From contig NZ_AOHZ01000068.1 in the NCBI RefSeq assembly GCF_000337215.1, forward strand, positions 85,340 to 131,358: a stretch of 46,019 nucleotides of DNA, in the 5' to 3' direction. This DNA is from Natronolimnohabitans innermongolicus JCM 12255 (lineage in GTDB: Archaea; Halobacteriota; Halobacteria; Halobacteriales; Natrialbaceae). Shown here in pieces: positions 26,073-35,410 of this stretch (positions are counted from its first letter, which is position 1; each line of letters begins with the position of its first letter). Position numbers and translations under genes: made by a program. The notes beneath the pieces were generated by a model that was not told the origin of the DNA, made no database searches, and saw only the letters and a program-made list of their open reading frames with translations.

Positions 26073-26801
26073 TTATCGTCCGTCGTCGCCGTCAGCGTCG
26101 TCGCTCTCGTTCTTGCGCTCGCTCTCGCGATTCGCGGTCTCTCCCCGCTCGGCCGTCGATCCCCCGTCCGGCGGCCGCGGATCGCTGATCGCATCCGGAT
26201 CGATTTCGGGATCGACCGCGGCGTCGGTTCGTCCCGGGCCGTCGGTCGGCTCGACCGTCGCATCGGTCGGCTCCCGATCCGCGTCCGGGTCGACGCGTGC
26301 GTCCGTCTGCCGGCGCTTCTCGTCGCTCTCGAGGGTGGCATCGGTCGGCGATCTATCCTCGGTGCGGTCGACCGAGATGCCCGAGGGGGTACCCGGCGTG
26401 TCGGTTCCACCGACCAGCTCGGTCGGATCCGCCTCGAGGCCGCGATCCTGACGGTCGGCGGTCTCGTCGCCGCGCGTCGTCAACTCCGCTTCGGACGGCT
26501 TTGACGGCTCGGACGTCTCAGTCACCTCGGGCGCCTCGCTCGCCCCCTCGGCTTCCGTCGGGAGTTCGCCCTCGAGTCGGACGGCGTCGGCGGTCACCTC
26601 GCGAACCGAATCGGCCTCGAGCGGACGGGTCTCGTCGGTGACGCCTTCCCAGCCGATCGAGGACGTGACGGAGTCGATCGCGTCGGCGTTCGGTCTGACG
26701 TGAGCGACGTTACCCTCGATCGCCGCGACGACGCCGACGTCCTCGCCGGCGGCGTTTCGAACGGGTTTGCCGACGTCGTCGTCGGTAAACGGACGGTGCA
26801 T
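26073..26801 (-). CDS. barrel-like N-terminal domain with long disordered acidic tail (paralogue 1)
   Basis: A 242-residue protein. Residues 1-70 (FTDDDVGKPVRNAAGEDVGV, ending in a DSVREVTADAVRLEG strand) look like a PRC-barrel-type small beta barrel. The remaining ~170 residues are low-complexity Asp/Glu/Thr/Pro sequence with recurring blocks such as PTDATVEP and QTDARVDP. The neighbour at 26994-27632 has the same N-terminal domain (FTDDDIGKPVERADGKVIG) but a membrane tail, so the pair arose by duplication. Function unknown; PRC barrels often serve as assembly or regulatory modules. Soluble by sequence. Confidence 0.75.
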   Translation of the reverse strand: MHRPFTDDDVGKPVRNAAGEDVGVVAAIEGNVAHVRPNADAIDSVTSSIGWEGVTDETRPLEADSVREVTADAVRLEGELPTEAEGASEAPEVTETSEPSKPSEAELTTRGDETADRQDRGLEADPTELVGGTDTPGTPSGISVDRTEDRSPTDATLESDEKRRQTDARVDPDADREPTDATVEPTDGPGRTDAAVDPEIDPDAISDPRPPDGGSTAERGETANRESERKNESDDADGDDGR

Positions 26802-26993: not shown

Positions 26994-27632
26994 TCAGTGA
27001 TCGAGCCCCGGTTCCATGTACGCCGCGGCGACGACGGCGGCGGCCGCGAGGAACGCGAACATCATGAATCCGGCCGCCCCCGAGACGAGGCCGAGTTCGG
27101 GACCGACCGTGAGCAGGTCCATCTCCTGGTAGCCGTACCAGGCAAAGAGCAACGCGATAATTCCGGAGAGGACCGCGACGCCCGCGGAAACCATCTGGAA
27201 CCGGTTGTCGAACGAACGGAGGCTGCCGGCGCTCGAACTCGTTTCTGGCACCGTCGTCGTGCCGCCGTCGGAGCGGTTCGACTCCGTCGTCTCATCCGCT
27301 CCCTCGACATTGTCTTCTGCGGACTCCGATTCCGTCTCCCCGTTGTCGGCGGCCGCTGCTGTGCCAGCCGTGGCCGCCGTCGCGTCCGCTCGAGAGAAGC
27401 TGTCGTCGAGGTAGATTCGCGTGTCGGCAACCAGACTGACGTCCTCGGCCTCGAGGATGAACGGACGGTCGGGCTCCGCCCGGTCGAACCTCACCAGCAG
27501 TCTGTCGATGGCGTCCGGGGCGGGATCGACGCGAACGCCGTCGTCTTCGAGCGCCCCAACGGTTCCGATCACCTTCCCGTCAGCGCGCTCGACGGGCTTC
27601 CCGATATCGTCGTCGGTGAACGTCGCACACAT
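26994..27632 (-). CDS. barrel-like domain with C-terminal TM helices (paralogue 2)
   Basis: A 212-residue protein. The N-terminal 75 residues match the upstream domain of the 26073-26801 protein (FTDDDIGKPVERADG; DAIDRLLVRFDR; EAEDVSLVADTRIYLDD). A Glu/Ser/Thr/Ala linker (80-135) follows, then two TM helices (about 148-168, IALLFAWYG region, and 180-205, AAGFMMFAFLAAAAVVAAAY). It would hold the barrel domain in the cytoplasm at the membrane. It has its own start with a 192-bp gap to paralogue 1. Function unknown. Confidence 0.78.
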   Translation of the reverse strand: MCATFTDDDIGKPVERADGKVIGTVGALEDDGVRVDPAPDAIDRLLVRFDRAEPDRPFILEAEDVSLVADTRIYLDDSFSRADATAATAGTAAAADNGETESESAEDNVEGADETTESNRSDGGTTTVPETSSSAGSLRSFDNRFQMVSAGVAVLSGIIALLFAWYGYQEMDLLTVGPELGLVSGAAGFMMFAFLAAAAVVAAAYMEPGLDH

Positions 27633-30262: not shown

Positions 30263-30301
30263 GTGCGAAAGCACTATGACGTGGATGGGAGAATACCCGA
30301 T

Positions 30302-31108
30302 ATGGACGGGACGGAATCGGCGCTCCAGGAGATCGAATTTCTCGCGCTCTCGCCGAACCGCGTCGCGGTGCTCGAGGCGCTGGCGGAGACGCCACACACG
30401 CGCACGGAACTCGCGTCGGAGACGGGCGCCTCGCAGGCGACGCTCGGACGGATTCTGGGTGACTTTCAGGACCGCTCGTGGATTCGCCGCGACGGAAGCG
30501 AGTACGCCGCGACCGCGACGGGCGCGCTCGTCGCGTCGGGGATGACCGACCTTCAGGAGATCATCGAGACCGAACGGCGCCTTCGGTCGGTCGTCGACTA
30601 TCTCCCCGCTGACGAGTTGACGTTCGATCTTCGCCGGCTGGCCGACGCTCGGATCACCACCCCCAGCCAGACGCGTCCGAACGCGCCGCTGTCGCGGCTG
30701 CTCGAGTTACTGCGGGATGCAGCGGACGTCCGGACAGTCTCGCACGCGTTCAACGAACAGACGCTGACGGTCGTCGACGAGCGGACGGCCGCCGGCGAGC
30801 AGACGTTCCGCGGCGTCTTCTCGCGATCCGCGATCGACGCGCTGGCCGACGATTCCGAACTCAGGGCCCGGCTCGCGTCGCTGCGGTCGACCGACGAGGC
30901 GTCGATCCGAGTCCGCGACGACGCGGTCCCCCTCGCGGTGATGATCCTCGACGACACCGTCTACCTGCTCGTCCGCGACGAACAGGGCGTGCTTCGGGCG
31001 TCGATCGATACCGACGACCCCGCCGTTCGAACGTGGGCGACGGAGACGGTCGCCGAGTACTGGTCGAGCGCCCGAACGCTCTCGGAAGCCGGCTTCTCGC
31101 TCGAGTGA
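30302..31108 (+). CDS. winged-helix transcriptional regulator (FilR1-domain type)
   Basis: A 268-residue regulator. An N-terminal winged helix (EIEFLALSPNRVAVLEALAE, TRTELASETGASQATLGRIL, RSWIRRDGSEYAATATG) is followed by a C-terminal sensor-like domain (residues ~100-265) ending with VPLAVMILDDTVYLLVRDE and a helix, as in the haloarchaeal HTH family with a methanogen FilR1-like effector domain. ATG at 30302 is preferred over a GTG at 30263, which overlaps operator O1. It is divergent from an EamA transporter, and two matching palindromic sites in the gap suggest it controls both. The ligand is unknown, possibly the exported compound. Confidence 0.85.
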   Translation: MDGTESALQEIEFLALSPNRVAVLEALAETPHTRTELASETGASQATLGRILGDFQDRSWIRRDGSEYAATATGALVASGMTDLQEIIETERRLRSVVDYLPADELTFDLRRLADARITTPSQTRPNAPLSRLLELLRDAADVRTVSHAFNEQTLTVVDERTAAGEQTFRGVFSRSAIDALADDSELRARLASLRSTDEASIRVRDDAVPLAVMILDDTVYLLVRDEQGVLRASIDTDDPAVRTWATETVAEYWSSARTLSEAGFSLE

Positions 31109-31372
31109 CTACGGTCGTCTTCGTGTCCAGTGGGACCAACTATCATTCGGTTTATCTATTCATTCACGAGTGCCGATGAGACACGTCGGCTGATCGAATA
31201 TTTAACTGTAAATTCGTCGCAGCGATCGTCAAATGGCGGTCCCGAGTGGCGCTGCGTCTATATTCTCCGTTGAATTACCATTTGGCAATAACAATTATCT
31301 ACTCGCTGTGGACATGATCTGATAGGTTATGAGTATACACACAGTGGTGGGAATCGATCTCGGGAGGCAGCG
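31109..31372. promoter_or_regulatory. AT-rich upstream region of the transducer-opsin operon
   Basis: A 264-bp AT-rich gap with several TATA-like stretches (GAATATTTAAC near 31196, TAACAATTATC near 31288, GTTATGAGTATAC near 31327). CAAATGG (about 31230) and CCATTTG (about 31278) form separated inverted arms. A strong Shine-Dalgarno-like GGAGG (31363-31367) lies 5 bp before ATG 31373 and fixes that start; such sites are not universal in haloarchaea. Confidence 0.55.
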
Positions 31373-33022
31373 ATGAGAGCCGAGGTGTTCGTCCCGGCTC
31401 GAATCCGACGCCAGTACAGCGCGAAAATCGCGACGGCACTCGGCTGTATCGTCGCCGTGACGTTCGCATTTGCCCTTCTGTTCGGCTACTACGTGACGAC
31501 GGTGCCGGCCGACCAGACGGAAGCGGCCGCGACGTCGGCGATCACCGGGCTCATGGTCGTCTTCTTCATGAGCCTCGGCCTGTTTGGCATCGTCATCGGC
31601 GGCAACACCGCCCTGGCGCTCACCCAACTCGGCGGCAAAGCCGAACGGATCGGCGACGGCGAGTTCGACGTCGACCTCGAGACGGAGCGGACCGACGAGA
31701 TCGGCCAGCTTTCTGCGACGCTCGCCGAGATGCGCGACTCGCTCGAGTCGTCGCTCGAGGAGGTCGAAGCCGAACAGCAGCGAGCACAGGAGGCGAAAGA
31801 ACGCGCCGAACAGCGCGCCGAAGAGGTCGAAGCCGAACGACAGCGCGTCCAGGAGACGCGAGAGGAGATCGAACGACAGAACGACGAACTGGTCGCGGAA
31901 GCCCAGCGCTTCTCCGAAGTGATGGACGCCTGTGCCGACGGGGATCTCAGCCGGCGCCTCGAGCCCCAGGTCGACAACCAGGCGACCGAAGCGATCGCGG
32001 CGTCGTTCAACGAGATGCTCGACGAGATCGGCGAGGCCATCGCCGAGGTCCAGACCTCGGCCGAGACGGTCGAGACGGTCGCGGCCGATCTGCAGGGCTC
32101 GAGCGAGCAGATTCGAGGCGCGAGTCAGGAAGTTGCTGAATCCATCCAGGAGATCGCCGACGGCGCGAGCAGACAGACCGCACAGCTAGACGACGCCGCG
32201 GGCGAGGTCAACGGCCTCTCGGCAGCGACCGAAGAGGTCGCCTCGACGACCGCCGAAATCGCCGCCCAGTCCGACGAAGTCGCTACGCTGGCCGACGAGG
32301 GTCGTCAGGCGGCAACTGAGGCGGCCGACGACATCGACTCGCTCGTCGACAACACCGAATCGGTCGTCGACTCCGTCGACGAACTGACCCGCGAGACCGA
32401 ACAGATCGGCGAGATCATCTCGCTGATCGATAACATCGCCGACCAGACCAACCTCCTCGCGTTGAACGCCGCGATCGAGGCGACGACGGCCGGCGAGGAC
32501 GGCGACCGCTTCGGCGTGGTCGCGACCGAGATCAAGTCCCTCGCGGAGGAGACGATGGACGCCGTCGAAGAGATCGAGGGCACCCTCGAGTCGATCCGCG
32601 CGCGAACGGAGGCGACGGCGGAAGAGATCTCGACGGTGGACGACGGAATCAGGGAGACGGCGACGGACATCGACGAACTGGCGGATAAACAGCGGACGAT
32701 CGCCGACGAGATCGATCAGGTCGACGAGAGCATCCAGGGGATCGCGACGACCACCGACGACCAGGCCGACGCGGCCCAGCAACTCGCGACGATCATCGAC
32801 GACGTCGCCGACGTCTCGACGGACACCAGCACGACCGCCCAGCAGGTCGCGGCGGCCTCCGAGGAAACGACCGCGACGATCGACGACGTGTCGACGACGG
32901 CGAACTCGCTCGACGAGGACGCGAAAGCGCTTCGCTCGCTGGTCGGTTCGTTCACGCTGGATCGCTCGCTGTCGAATCCGGCGGGTCCGACGGCGGGTGT
33001 AACGCCTGCGGGGGGTGACTGA
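31373..33022 (+). CDS. halobacterial transducer (methyl-accepting type), opsin-coupled
   Basis: A 549-residue signal transducer. Two TM helices (about residues 19-41 and 56-79) are separated by only ~14 residues, so there is no periplasmic ligand domain. A HAMP domain (about 80-130) follows, then a long coiled coil (EEVEAEQQRAQEAKERAEQR region, 128-180), a second HAMP (about 183-235) and an MA domain (about 240-530). Its tip (IADQTNLLALNAAIEA, near residue 360) is the CheW/CheA contact region, and Glu/Gln-rich segments could be methylation sites. This is the architecture of Htr proteins that take their input from a sensory rhodopsin in the membrane. The next gene, 2 bp away, is an opsin homologue. 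Confidence 0.92.
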   Translation: MRAEVFVPARIRRQYSAKIATALGCIVAVTFAFALLFGYYVTTVPADQTEAAATSAITGLMVVFFMSLGLFGIVIGGNTALALTQLGGKAERIGDGEFDVDLETERTDEIGQLSATLAEMRDSLESSLEEVEAEQQRAQEAKERAEQRAEEVEAERQRVQETREEIERQNDELVAEAQRFSEVMDACADGDLSRRLEPQVDNQATEAIAASFNEMLDEIGEAIAEVQTSAETVETVAADLQGSSEQIRGASQEVAESIQEIADGASRQTAQLDDAAGEVNGLSAATEEVASTTAEIAAQSDEVATLADEGRQAATEAADDIDSLVDNTESVVDSVDELTRETEQIGEIISLIDNIADQTNLLALNAAIEATTAGEDGDRFGVVATEIKSLAEETMDAVEEIEGTLESIRARTEATAEEISTVDDGIRETATDIDELADKQRTIADEIDQVDESIQGIATTTDDQADAAQQLATIIDDVADVSTDTSTTAQQVAAASEETTATIDDVSTTANSLDEDAKALRSLVGSFTLDRSLSNPAGPTAGVTPAGGD

Positions 33023-33024
33023 AC

Positions 33025-33759
33025 GTGATTCAGATGGAGAGCGTCCTCCTCGCGTCCGGTGTCACCTTCTCGCTGGTGACGATTCTAGCGCTCGTCGGAA
33101 CGCTCCAGCTCTCGGCGCGGACGCGCCTCTACGGCTACGCCGCGGTCGCCGCCTGCGGGTCGATGGCGATCGCGTACGTGGCGATGGTGCCCGCTGAGAT
33201 GGCCGGTATCGAGACGGATTATCTGCGCTTCGTGGGGTACGGCGCCATGTGGGCGGGAATCTGTCTTCTCGTCGGCGCCGTCTCCGGTGCCGGCCGAACG
33301 CTGACGCTGGTGCTTCTCGGAATCGTTCAGGCGCGCGTCTGGGTGACGCTGCTCAGCTGGCACGTCGAGGGCGTCCTCGGAACGCTGCTCGCCGCGTTTC
33401 CGTTCGTTATGTTGATCGCCGGCGTCTACGTCCTGTTCGGCCCGTTCGCACGGGCCGCCGCGACCGTCAGCAGCACGCGACGGCTCCTCTATGCGAAACT
33501 CAGGAACCTGATCGTCCTCGTGTGGCTGGGTCTCGTCGCGCTCGGCCTGTTGAGCGGCGCCGAGTTCGCGCTCACCGACGACTTCCTCGAGCAACTCTCG
33601 ATCATTTACGTCGAAGCCATCCTGCTGGTCGGCTTCGCCGGCATCGTCCTCCGCAGCACGGACGCGCTCGAGGACACCGCTGCGAGCCGATCGACAGCCC
33701 TCGATGCCGAGTCCGACTCCAGCGGCGACGTCGACGCGGCCGTCAACGCCGCCGACTGA
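33025..33759 (+). CDS. bacteriorhodopsin-family protein lacking the retinal-binding lysine
   Basis: A 244-residue seven-TM protein from GTG 33025 (ATG 33034 is an alternative). Family traits: helix B YGYAAVAACGSMAIAYVAM, helix C with R68 (like BR Arg82), helix F YAKLRNLIVLVW (LRN and Trp like BR Trp182), helix G LLVGFAGIVLRS matching BR VGFGLILLRS. Aligned on VGF, BR Lys216 is Leu201 and Asp212 is Glu197; BR Asp85 is Gly71 and Asp96 is lost; BR Tyr185, Pro186 and Trp189 are also replaced. The only lysine in the protein is K158 at the cytoplasmic end of helix F, so a retinal Schiff base in the normal place is impossible. It is coupled to the transducer gene before it, hence a sensory role with another input is inferred. 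Confidence 0.82.
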   Translation: MIQMESVLLASGVTFSLVTILALVGTLQLSARTRLYGYAAVAACGSMAIAYVAMVPAEMAGIETDYLRFVGYGAMWAGICLLVGAVSGAGRTLTLVLLGIVQARVWVTLLSWHVEGVLGTLLAAFPFVMLIAGVYVLFGPFARAAATVSSTRRLLYAKLRNLIVLVWLGLVALGLLSGAEFALTDDFLEQLSIIYVEAILLVGFAGIVLRSTDALEDTAASRSTALDAESDSSGDVDAAVNAAD

Positions 33760-33782
33760 CGGACCGGTTCGATCAGGTACGC

Positions 33783-33788
33783 TTTTTT
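33783..33788 (+). terminator. T-run terminator of the transducer-opsin operon
   Basis: A T6 run (GCTTTTTTCG) 24 bp after the opsin stop, in GC-rich surroundings: consistent with archaeal T-tract termination. Confidence 0.5.
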
Positions 33789-33832
33789 CGAGTCCGCAGT
33801 CAGCGTGATCGGCCGCTACTCATCTGTGGCTA

Positions 33833-35410
33833 CTACAATTCGACCACAGTCGGCTCTCGGTCCCCACAGCCGTGTCGGTAGAGCTCCGACGGCTCCCACG
33901 TCCGCTCGCTCGGTGAGTCGATCGTCTCCCAGGTCACGTCCGCTTCGACCACGTACATCGTAATGTAGATGAGTTCGCCGTCGACGGCCTCGTCCTCGTT
34001 CCACTCGGCACAGATGTGATCGGCAAACAGCGCCTGCGTATCGGCGGGCTCCCCGGCCCTGACGCTGTTCATGTAGAATCGCTCTCGGTACGTCCCGTAC
34101 TGCGTCTGTAGTTCCGCATCCGGTTTGTCGACCGTCAGCGGACGATCGTTGTAAACGTCGATGCGCTCGCCGCCTTCCGTCTGGGCCGCGAAGACGTGGT
34201 ACCGATCGGTCGTCCGCGGATTCGGCGCGAAGATGCTCCACTCCGTCTGGTGATCGACGAATCCCACGGCACCGCGCTGGGCCGTCTCCGCCGGATCGAC
34301 GTCGTCGGCGAGCAATCCGCCGGCAGAGAGCACCGCGAGGAGCGCGAACGCGCCGAAGAGAACGGCGCCCGCCGCCACCGCCGTTCGTCGCGGATTTCGG
34401 CTGAGTCGAACGACGACGCCCTCGAGCGGTCGCCACCGCGGGAACGCGGCCGCGACGGTCTCGAGCCTCGAGGCTCGTTCGTTCATCCGGCTGATCGGCA
34501 CGCCAGCCCGCACCAGCAGCGCTCGAAGGTCGTCCCAGAACGGCGTCTGGAAGAACAGGAGCAGTCCGGCGAGGGCGACGAACGCGAACGCGCCGATGCG
34601 GACGGTTACGGCGAACGAGAGGTGCGCCAAGACGAACGGCGCGACCAGCACCGTTCGCAGATGGCCTCGAACCAGCAAGAGCACCCACGCGAACAACAGC
34701 ATGTAGTACCACGCCAGCCCGCCGTACTGCAGCAGCGTCGGCACCTGCTGGACGAGATCCGCCAGCAGAAACGTCATGTCGTCGAGTCCGAGCACGAGCG
34801 CGGCCGCCTCGCCGCTCGTCCACAGCTCCGACTCGGTCTTGTGGTAGCCGTTGACGACGTACATCGTGACCAGCTGGGCGAGGATCAACGCCGTGGCCGG
34901 CGTGGCGACGCTCGCTCGAGGCGCGCGGTCGGCGTGGACGGCGTCGACCGACCAGCGCTCGCCCAGCGGGAGGAAGATCGCCCAGAACAGCAACCAGACG
35001 AACAGCGTGTCGGCGTAGCTCAACACGAGTGGGTTCCGCAGGTCCAGCGAGAGGACGAACACGAGCGAGAGCGCGGTCGCGATTCTGGTCCGGTAGCCGA
35101 CCAGCAACTGCACGGCGAACAGGGCGTGAATCGCGAACAGCGCCGCCGTTCCCGTCTGGCTCCCGGTGAGAAAGTACACGGACGCGTCGACGGGCAGCGC
35201 GTCCATCGCCAGCGAGCGGGGCACCACGCCCTGGTCGGTGTAGAAGTACGTGAAGTTCCGGGCCCGTAGCGCGAGGTCAGCGAGGATCAATAGCGCGGCG
35301 ACGATCCGGAACATCGCCAGCGCTCGAGTGTCGATCCGTACGCACTCGCGGAGGTATGATCCGGCGGTGCGGATCCAGGGTCGCAAGCGGTGACTCGAGA
35401 CGGGCCTCAT
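33833..35410 (-). CDS. HTTM domain membrane protein
   Basis: A 525-residue polytopic protein. The N-terminal half is the HTTM domain (residues ~22-300): RIDTRALAMFRIVAALLILADL, NFTYFYTDQGVVPR, LVGYRTRIATALSLVF, LDLRNPLVLSYADTLFVWLL, and VNGYHKTESELWTSGEAAAL, with a family-typical His-Lys in the last. A further TM near 340-360 leads to a soluble C-terminal domain (residues ~375-525; EWSIFAPNPRTTDRYHVFAA; FYMNSVRAGEPADTQALFA). HTTM domains are related to vitamin-K gamma-carboxylase membrane domains and to LMF-type proteins; the activity of haloarchaeal members is unknown. A TATA-like CAAATATGAC lies about 30 bp upstream on the minus strand (35438-35447). Confidence 0.88.
   Translation of the reverse strand: MRPVSSHRLRPWIRTAGSYLRECVRIDTRALAMFRIVAALLILADLALRARNFTYFYTDQGVVPRSLAMDALPVDASVYFLTGSQTGTAALFAIHALFAVQLLVGYRTRIATALSLVFVLSLDLRNPLVLSYADTLFVWLLFWAIFLPLGERWSVDAVHADRAPRASVATPATALILAQLVTMYVVNGYHKTESELWTSGEAAALVLGLDDMTFLLADLVQQVPTLLQYGGLAWYYMLLFAWVLLLVRGHLRTVLVAPFVLAHLSFAVTVRIGAFAFVALAGLLLFFQTPFWDDLRALLVRAGVPISRMNERASRLETVAAAFPRWRPLEGVVVRLSRNPRRTAVAAGAVLFGAFALLAVLSAGGLLADDVDPAETAQRGAVGFVDHQTEWSIFAPNPRTTDRYHVFAAQTEGGERIDVYNDRPLTVDKPDAELQTQYGTYRERFYMNSVRAGEPADTQALFADHICAEWNEDEAVDGELIYITMYVVEADVTWETIDSPSERTWEPSELYRHGCGDREPTVVEL

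Follow-up and report, generated by a model that had tools for sequence, protein, structure and literature searches.

What does an opsin homologue sense once it has lost the retinal lysine, and why does it stand next to a transducer that has no extracellular sensor domain? We addressed this question for a gene pair of Natronolimnohabitans innermongolicus JCM 12255, located in a stretch of 46,019 nucleotides of contig NZ_AOHZ01000068.1 (the whole stretch that was analysed, which we refer to as the window). The preliminary description of this DNA had placed a transducer gene directly ahead of an opsin-like gene on the plus strand, and both the coordinates and the order are right (Table 1). It had read the pair as a receptor for a non-retinal ligand or another membrane stimulus. 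A non-retinal receptor is indeed the best reading, because this is a sensory rhodopsin-transducer-like pair without the retinal lysine and belongs to a class that has been reported; a ligand is one possible stimulus.

Table 1. Features of the locus in window coordinates (ORP, opsin-related protein)
Feature	Position	Strand	Basis
HVO_A0261/FilR1-type winged-helix regulator, adjoins operon	30263..31108	+	Domain match; neighbourhood comparison
2.7-kb module (promoter region, transducer and ORP), absent en bloc from congener G098	31110..33848	.	Locus comparison
Promoter-region element GGCAATAACAATTATC	31284..31299	+	Conservation upstream of orthologues; sole perfect genome copy
HtrII-type transducer, 549 aa	31373..33022	+	Pfam HAMP and MCPsignal; NpHtrII match
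Transducer TM1-short loop-TM2 (about aa 18-77), homologue of the SRII-binding HtrII hairpin	31424..31603	+	Alignments
ORP, 244 aa, GTG start, 7 TM, without retinal lysine	33025..33759	+	Homology, fold, tree, alignment
Arg104 codon (SRII position 108)	33334..33336	+	Alignment; invariant in sub-clade, absent elsewhere
Glu197 codon (BR Asp212, SRII Asp201)	33613..33615	+	Alignment
Leu201 codon (BR Lys216, SRII Lys205)	33625..33627	+	Alignment

Sequence alone ties the ORP only weakly to type 1 opsins. Its match to the bacteriorhodopsin family of Pfam (PF01036, Bac_rhodopsin) is borderline at 18.9 bits (E 0.0011), below the curated cut-off of 24.6 bits; a search of NCBIfam returned no family for it, and phmmer against the PDB gave cruxrhodopsin-3 at E 2e-4 and SRII at E of about 5e-4 to 6e-4. 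The predicted fold is unambiguous. An AF2 model built on 40 aligned sequences (pLDDT 93.9) has seven TM helices, SRII structures rank first for it in Foldseek (E 3e-7, TM 0.78-0.88), and VIA-align gives Z scores of about 26 to BR, AR2 and SRII over more than 200 residues. Given the opsin fold, the sub-threshold PF01036 score is a limit of sensitivity, and it is the modelled fold that settles the opsin homology; the preliminary description had named an unlike fold as counting against its reading, and none was predicted. Between N. pharaonis SRII and the window ORP, 21% of residues are identical on the common 7TM fold.

Alignment with SRII bears out the substitutions that had been claimed for the retinal site, namely L201 for K205, G71 for D75 and E197 for D201 (BR Lys216, Asp85 and Asp212, respectively), and also the claim of a single lysine, K158, which stands at the position of SRII R162; helix G has no lysine in this alignment. 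The aromatic retinal pocket has gone as well: Y174, W178 and F127 of SRII correspond to L170, G174 and A123, and only W171 is kept, as W167 (all four positions are aromatic in the Lys-opsins compared). Judged by these residues, the window ORP should be incapable of binding retinal in the usual manner.

Opsin homologues lacking the retinal lysine had been said to form a reported class, and this class corresponds to the haloarchaeal ORPs of Becker et al. 2016 (PMC4915679). Becker et al. divide ORPs by the occupant of the lysine position, which is Arg in group A and Leu or a different hydrophobic residue in group B. Many ORPs adjoin HAMP/MCP transducers, and sensing of stimuli other than light was proposed for them; two purified ORPs bound no retinal and had no retinal-dependent absorption, and ORP proteins were undetectable in their native hosts (PMC4915679). 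The window ORP is a group B ORP, a class known since 2016. It shares with group B the Leu at the lysine position (L201), the retained Y51, R72 (R68) and Y199 (Y195), the changes of Y174 to L (L170) and of W178 to G (G174), the Asp at 189 (D185) and the adjacent transducer; group A was rejected, because the lysine position holds Leu and not Arg. Most ORPs, not all, have a polar T or S at position 127 (PMC4915679), which is a majority trait rather than a strictly defining one: the window ORP has Ala123 there, and Ala is found in 3 of the 21 members of the sub-clade described below. A literature search for work that identifies the stimulus of an ORP returned none.

Relatives of the window ORP, sought at E <= 1e-5 in 125 genomes of the same family, were found in 53 of them (the nearest ones found are from the family of the host), and the orthologous frames are open and conserved. 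Named hosts include Natronorubrum halalkaliphilum, Halopiger, Salinadaptatus, Natrialba and Halostagnicola. We compared residues across 144 opsins (71 with the lysine and 73 without), which fall into four sets. Arg108 together with Glu201 marks a sub-clade of ORPs (21 of 21 members, the window ORP included) and occurs in none of the other 123 opsins, all of which have Asp at 201; in the other group B ORPs compared, this Asp201 goes with a variable position 108. Gly75, Tyr76, Trp80, Trp171, Leu174 and Gly178 are likewise invariant in the sub-clade (n = 21). At 41-54% identity across the 21 sequences there are 35 invariant columns, among them R68, G71, Y72, W76, R104, W106, K158, W167, G174, Y195 and E197 in window numbering. 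The sub-clade is a single branch (SH-aLRT 100) nested among Asp201 ORPs of the Leu/Phe/Ile type; the tree is a quick one, with two long-branch warnings, both outside the sub-clade.

From established knowledge of BR and SRII, we take position 201 to be near the Schiff base. Position 108 belongs to the pocket lining around the beta-ionone ring of retinal (PMC4915679). With Arg at 108 and Glu at 201, the old pocket therefore carries a positive side chain at its ring end and an acidic one towards the Schiff base; because the two positions are at opposite ends, Arg104 and Glu197 need not touch. The earlier remark that Glu197 offers ligand chemistry in the former pocket has thus become stronger than it was, in that this residue marks a sub-clade of 21 members and is always accompanied by the invariant Arg104. 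The 48 sequences of Becker et al. may well include sub-clade members from Natrialba, so that the novelty is in the signature, not in the existence of the proteins; the signature and the regulatory element (below) are apparently new, and the available part of PMC4915679 reports neither this element nor transducer losses for group B.

Arg-type ORPs, which comprise Becker group A and a set of 15 with Arg205 and Tyr174, are like the window ORP in lacking the retinal lysine, in having an adjacent transducer and in keeping Tyr199; they differ in the Arg at 205 (Leu, Val or Ile in the window type), in their separate tree branches and in having no promoter element. The 15-member set (L030, L031, L055-L064, L067, L068 and L071) also has Trp108, mostly retains Asp75, has longer transducer frames (roughly 760-880 codons) and occupies its own branch; it fits neither group A (W76 to D, Y174 to L) nor group B of Becker et al. 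One further ORP (L028/L209, genome G113) has His at the lysine position and a long branch.

The partner gene encodes an HtrII-type transducer. HtrII (5jjj_B) is matched by its first 130 residues at E 4e-24, and behind the hairpin Pfam finds two HAMP stretches and an MCP signalling domain. The claim that it has no sensor domain stands: two TM helices form a hairpin homologous to the SRII-binding one, with a short loop (that of HtrII is a few residues longer). In the SRII-HtrII crystal structure, Tyr199 hydrogen-bonds HtrII Asn74, and Thr189 bonds Glu43 and Ser62 (PMC3274258). Position 199 is Tyr in 73 of 73 ORPs compared. On the transducer side, Glu43, Ser62 and Asn74 of NpHtrII are Tyr, Ser and Ser in the window; among the 12 paired transducers of the sub-clade, 11 retain Asn74, and the exception is the window transducer, whose Ser (31568-31576) counts against an SRII-HtrII-like complex. 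ORP transducers have His or Tyr for Glu43, and paired ORPs mostly have Asp at 189, a possible re-matched contact in place of Thr189/Glu43, suggested by the alignments; small gaps near position 189 make the exact transducer-facing Asp uncertain. ORP and transducer distances are correlated (Mantel r 0.87 over 24 pairs, 0.67 within the sub-clade), a correlation that still includes shared species history. Overall, the window pair resembles N. pharaonis SRII-HtrII in its transducer-then-opsin order, its homologous hairpin and its Tyr199, and differs from it in lacking Lys205, Asp75 and the retinal pocket, in having Asp/Tyr for the Thr189/Glu43 contact and in having Ser for transducer Asn74.

With moderate confidence, we read the pair as an SRII-HtrII-like membrane receptor complex that is not driven by light and whose input is most likely received by a small-ligand pocket. 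The SRII-HtrII-like shape of the receptor is well supported; the complex itself, its coupling to taxis, the ligand and the ligand site are what we infer. The ORP would be the 7TM sensory subunit, with its helices F and G holding the two-helix transducer through Tyr195 (SRII Tyr199), Asp185 (SRII 189) and Lys158 at the cytoplasmic end of helix F. The emptied pocket, with its invariant Arg104, Glu197, Trp76, Arg68 and Tyr72, would accommodate a small ligand, polar or charged, which would shift helices F and G as photo-isomerisation does in SRII, and the HAMP and MCP domains of the transducer would report the ORP's state to CheA/CheW and thereby to the archaellum. Two CheA-type kinases are encoded in the genome that carries the operon. 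More tentatively, the Arg108/Glu201 ORPs could form a separate class of archaeal chemoreceptors, with a pocket rebuilt to recognise an ion or a small charged molecule and with a transducer that could be swapped for one encoded at another locus, which would amount to a GPCR-like use of type 1 opsins; we consider this possible rather than probable.

A membrane or ionic stimulus is, in our judgement, the main rival to the pocket ligand that we favour as the input. The ORP might sense the physical state of the membrane (osmotic stress, temperature, voltage, salt or pH) with no dissociable ligand, and Arg104 and Glu197 would then be a structural or titratable network. The absolute conservation of these two residues is what structural charges would show; the hosts are extreme halophiles, several of them alkaliphilic by name, and there is no extracellular domain to catch a solute. 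We nevertheless regard this account as unlikely, given that side chains that fill the retinal site are now smaller (G for W178, and A, T or S for F127) and that the cavity open to the extracellular side in modelled ORPs (PMC4915679) suits a ligand better.

A second alternative accepts the receptor and doubts its role in taxis: the ORP may act in gene regulation or stress response, or through a transducer elsewhere, and the adjacent pairing would be a remnant that is being lost. The neighbourhood bears on this. The order EamA transporter, winged-helix regulator, transducer and ORP recurs in several genera, with the regulator adjoining the ORP locus in L138, L139 and L128 and rearranged in L140 (a role of the regulator in the operon is unproven, and it is a candidate only). 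N. halalkaliphilum has the same neighbourhood with the transducer deleted and the ORP intact (L127:2666-3000); the element is left upstream of the deletion and a transducer-tail-like remnant (...PTDVAPAGGE) downstream. The Natrialba lineage and locus L032 also have an ORP with no adjacent transducer. The distribution of pairing over the tree requires three independent changes, with the transducer lost and the ORP kept. The transducer and opsin therefore do not form an obligate pair, as had been supposed: pairing holds in many members, and it is not universal. Since the pocket signature is intact in the 9 of 21 members that are unpaired, the ORP may also function with no transducer of its own. 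These losses, and the 15 of 32 group B ORPs that are unlinked to a transducer (PMC4915679), are what a role outside taxis would lead one to expect. Against it, 11 of the 20 sub-clade ORPs in the tree are still paired, with intact transducer hairpins, and the reverse case exists as well: in G037 (L070:2225-4186), an intact frame for an ORP-type transducer lies beside the broken remnant of a Glu201-type ORP. Moreover, genomes with unpaired ORPs encode ORP-type transducers elsewhere, so that pairing in trans is possible. We therefore find a role outside taxis distinctly unlikely. In congener G098, the genes for EamA, the regulator and HTTM run collinear with those of the window (79-81% identical in DNA), and the 2.7-kb block is absent; loss in G098 is the simpler reading, because other genera have the pair in this neighbourhood.

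The receptor reading is accompanied by a shared regulatory element, GGC(A/G)ATAACA(A/G)TTATC, which lies 73 nt upstream of the transducer start and stays with the ORP after transducer loss. It is present upstream with at most three mismatches at 19 of 22 sub-clade loci (14 of them perfect), and at the remaining three it lies inside over-extended open frames. At the same threshold it precedes 13 of 36 Asp201-type ORPs, none of 17 Arg-type ORPs and none of 71 Lys-opsins, and a reversed-pattern control never came within three mismatches at any locus compared. The window genome has one perfect copy, at the ORP operon. Many orthologous copies contain the palindrome GATAAC-A-GTTATC, of the kind that a dimeric regulator would bind; the element could be an operator or, sitting where the archaeal BRE/TATA is expected, a core promoter. 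As a sign of a motility regulon it found no support (there is one two-mismatch site outside the operon, and the reversed control gives two), and the H. volcanii CsmR motif, TATCA(N4)TGATA, bears no resemblance to it.

ORPs are independent of retinal synthesis. As regards retinal INDEPENDENCE, Brp/Blh (PF15461), the enzyme that forms retinal from beta-carotene, was found in 63 of the 72 family genomes with a Lys-opsin and in none of the 53 without one; where an ORP is present and a Lys-opsin is not, it was found in 0 of 26 genomes (rows were assigned from match tables, and an opsin counted as canonical when its match to PF01036 was far stronger than those of ORPs). The last count enlarges that of eight species given by Becker et al. 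(PMC4915679). It also bears on the proposal that the ORP is a photoreceptor with a non-covalently bound retinoid, carotenoid or other chromophore, an alternative that Becker et al. left possible: ORPs persist in these 26 genomes that have neither a Lys-opsin nor Brp/Blh, the aromatic residues of the retinal pocket are lost, and the two purified ORPs had no retinal-dependent absorption, which leaves a hidden chromophore very improbable. A separate observation is that the window genome encodes a halorhodopsin-like Lys-opsin (L001, G000:C14:54998-55669) and has no detected Brp/Blh, as is the case for eight other family genomes with a Lys-opsin.

That the ORP is a decaying, functionless sensory rhodopsin, as the lost lysine and the module-less congener might suggest, is scarcely credible in view of the open frames, the 35 invariant columns retained at 41-54% identity over 21 sequences, the conserved promoter element and the different look of true decay (L070). 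Readings of the ORP as a pseudogene or frameshift were likewise rejected, the frames being open in 21 relatives. For the non-retinal receptor that we favour, handles on the stimulus are provided by the two charged pocket residues, the shared element, the natural transducer deletions and the module-less congener; should a ligand be identified, type 1 opsins would count as a sensory scaffold of general use and not as a light-driven one alone.

Two further observations concern the surroundings. The contig of the ORP operon also carries, about 80 kb away, an archaellum operon with archaellins (L145, at about 28-37 kb of G000:C68). Within the window, the neighbouring minus-strand genes at 26073-26801 and 26994-27632 resemble each other in their N-terminal stretches (FTDDD[VI]GKPV...) and are an apparent tandem duplication; one has a long acidic tail, the other membrane helices.
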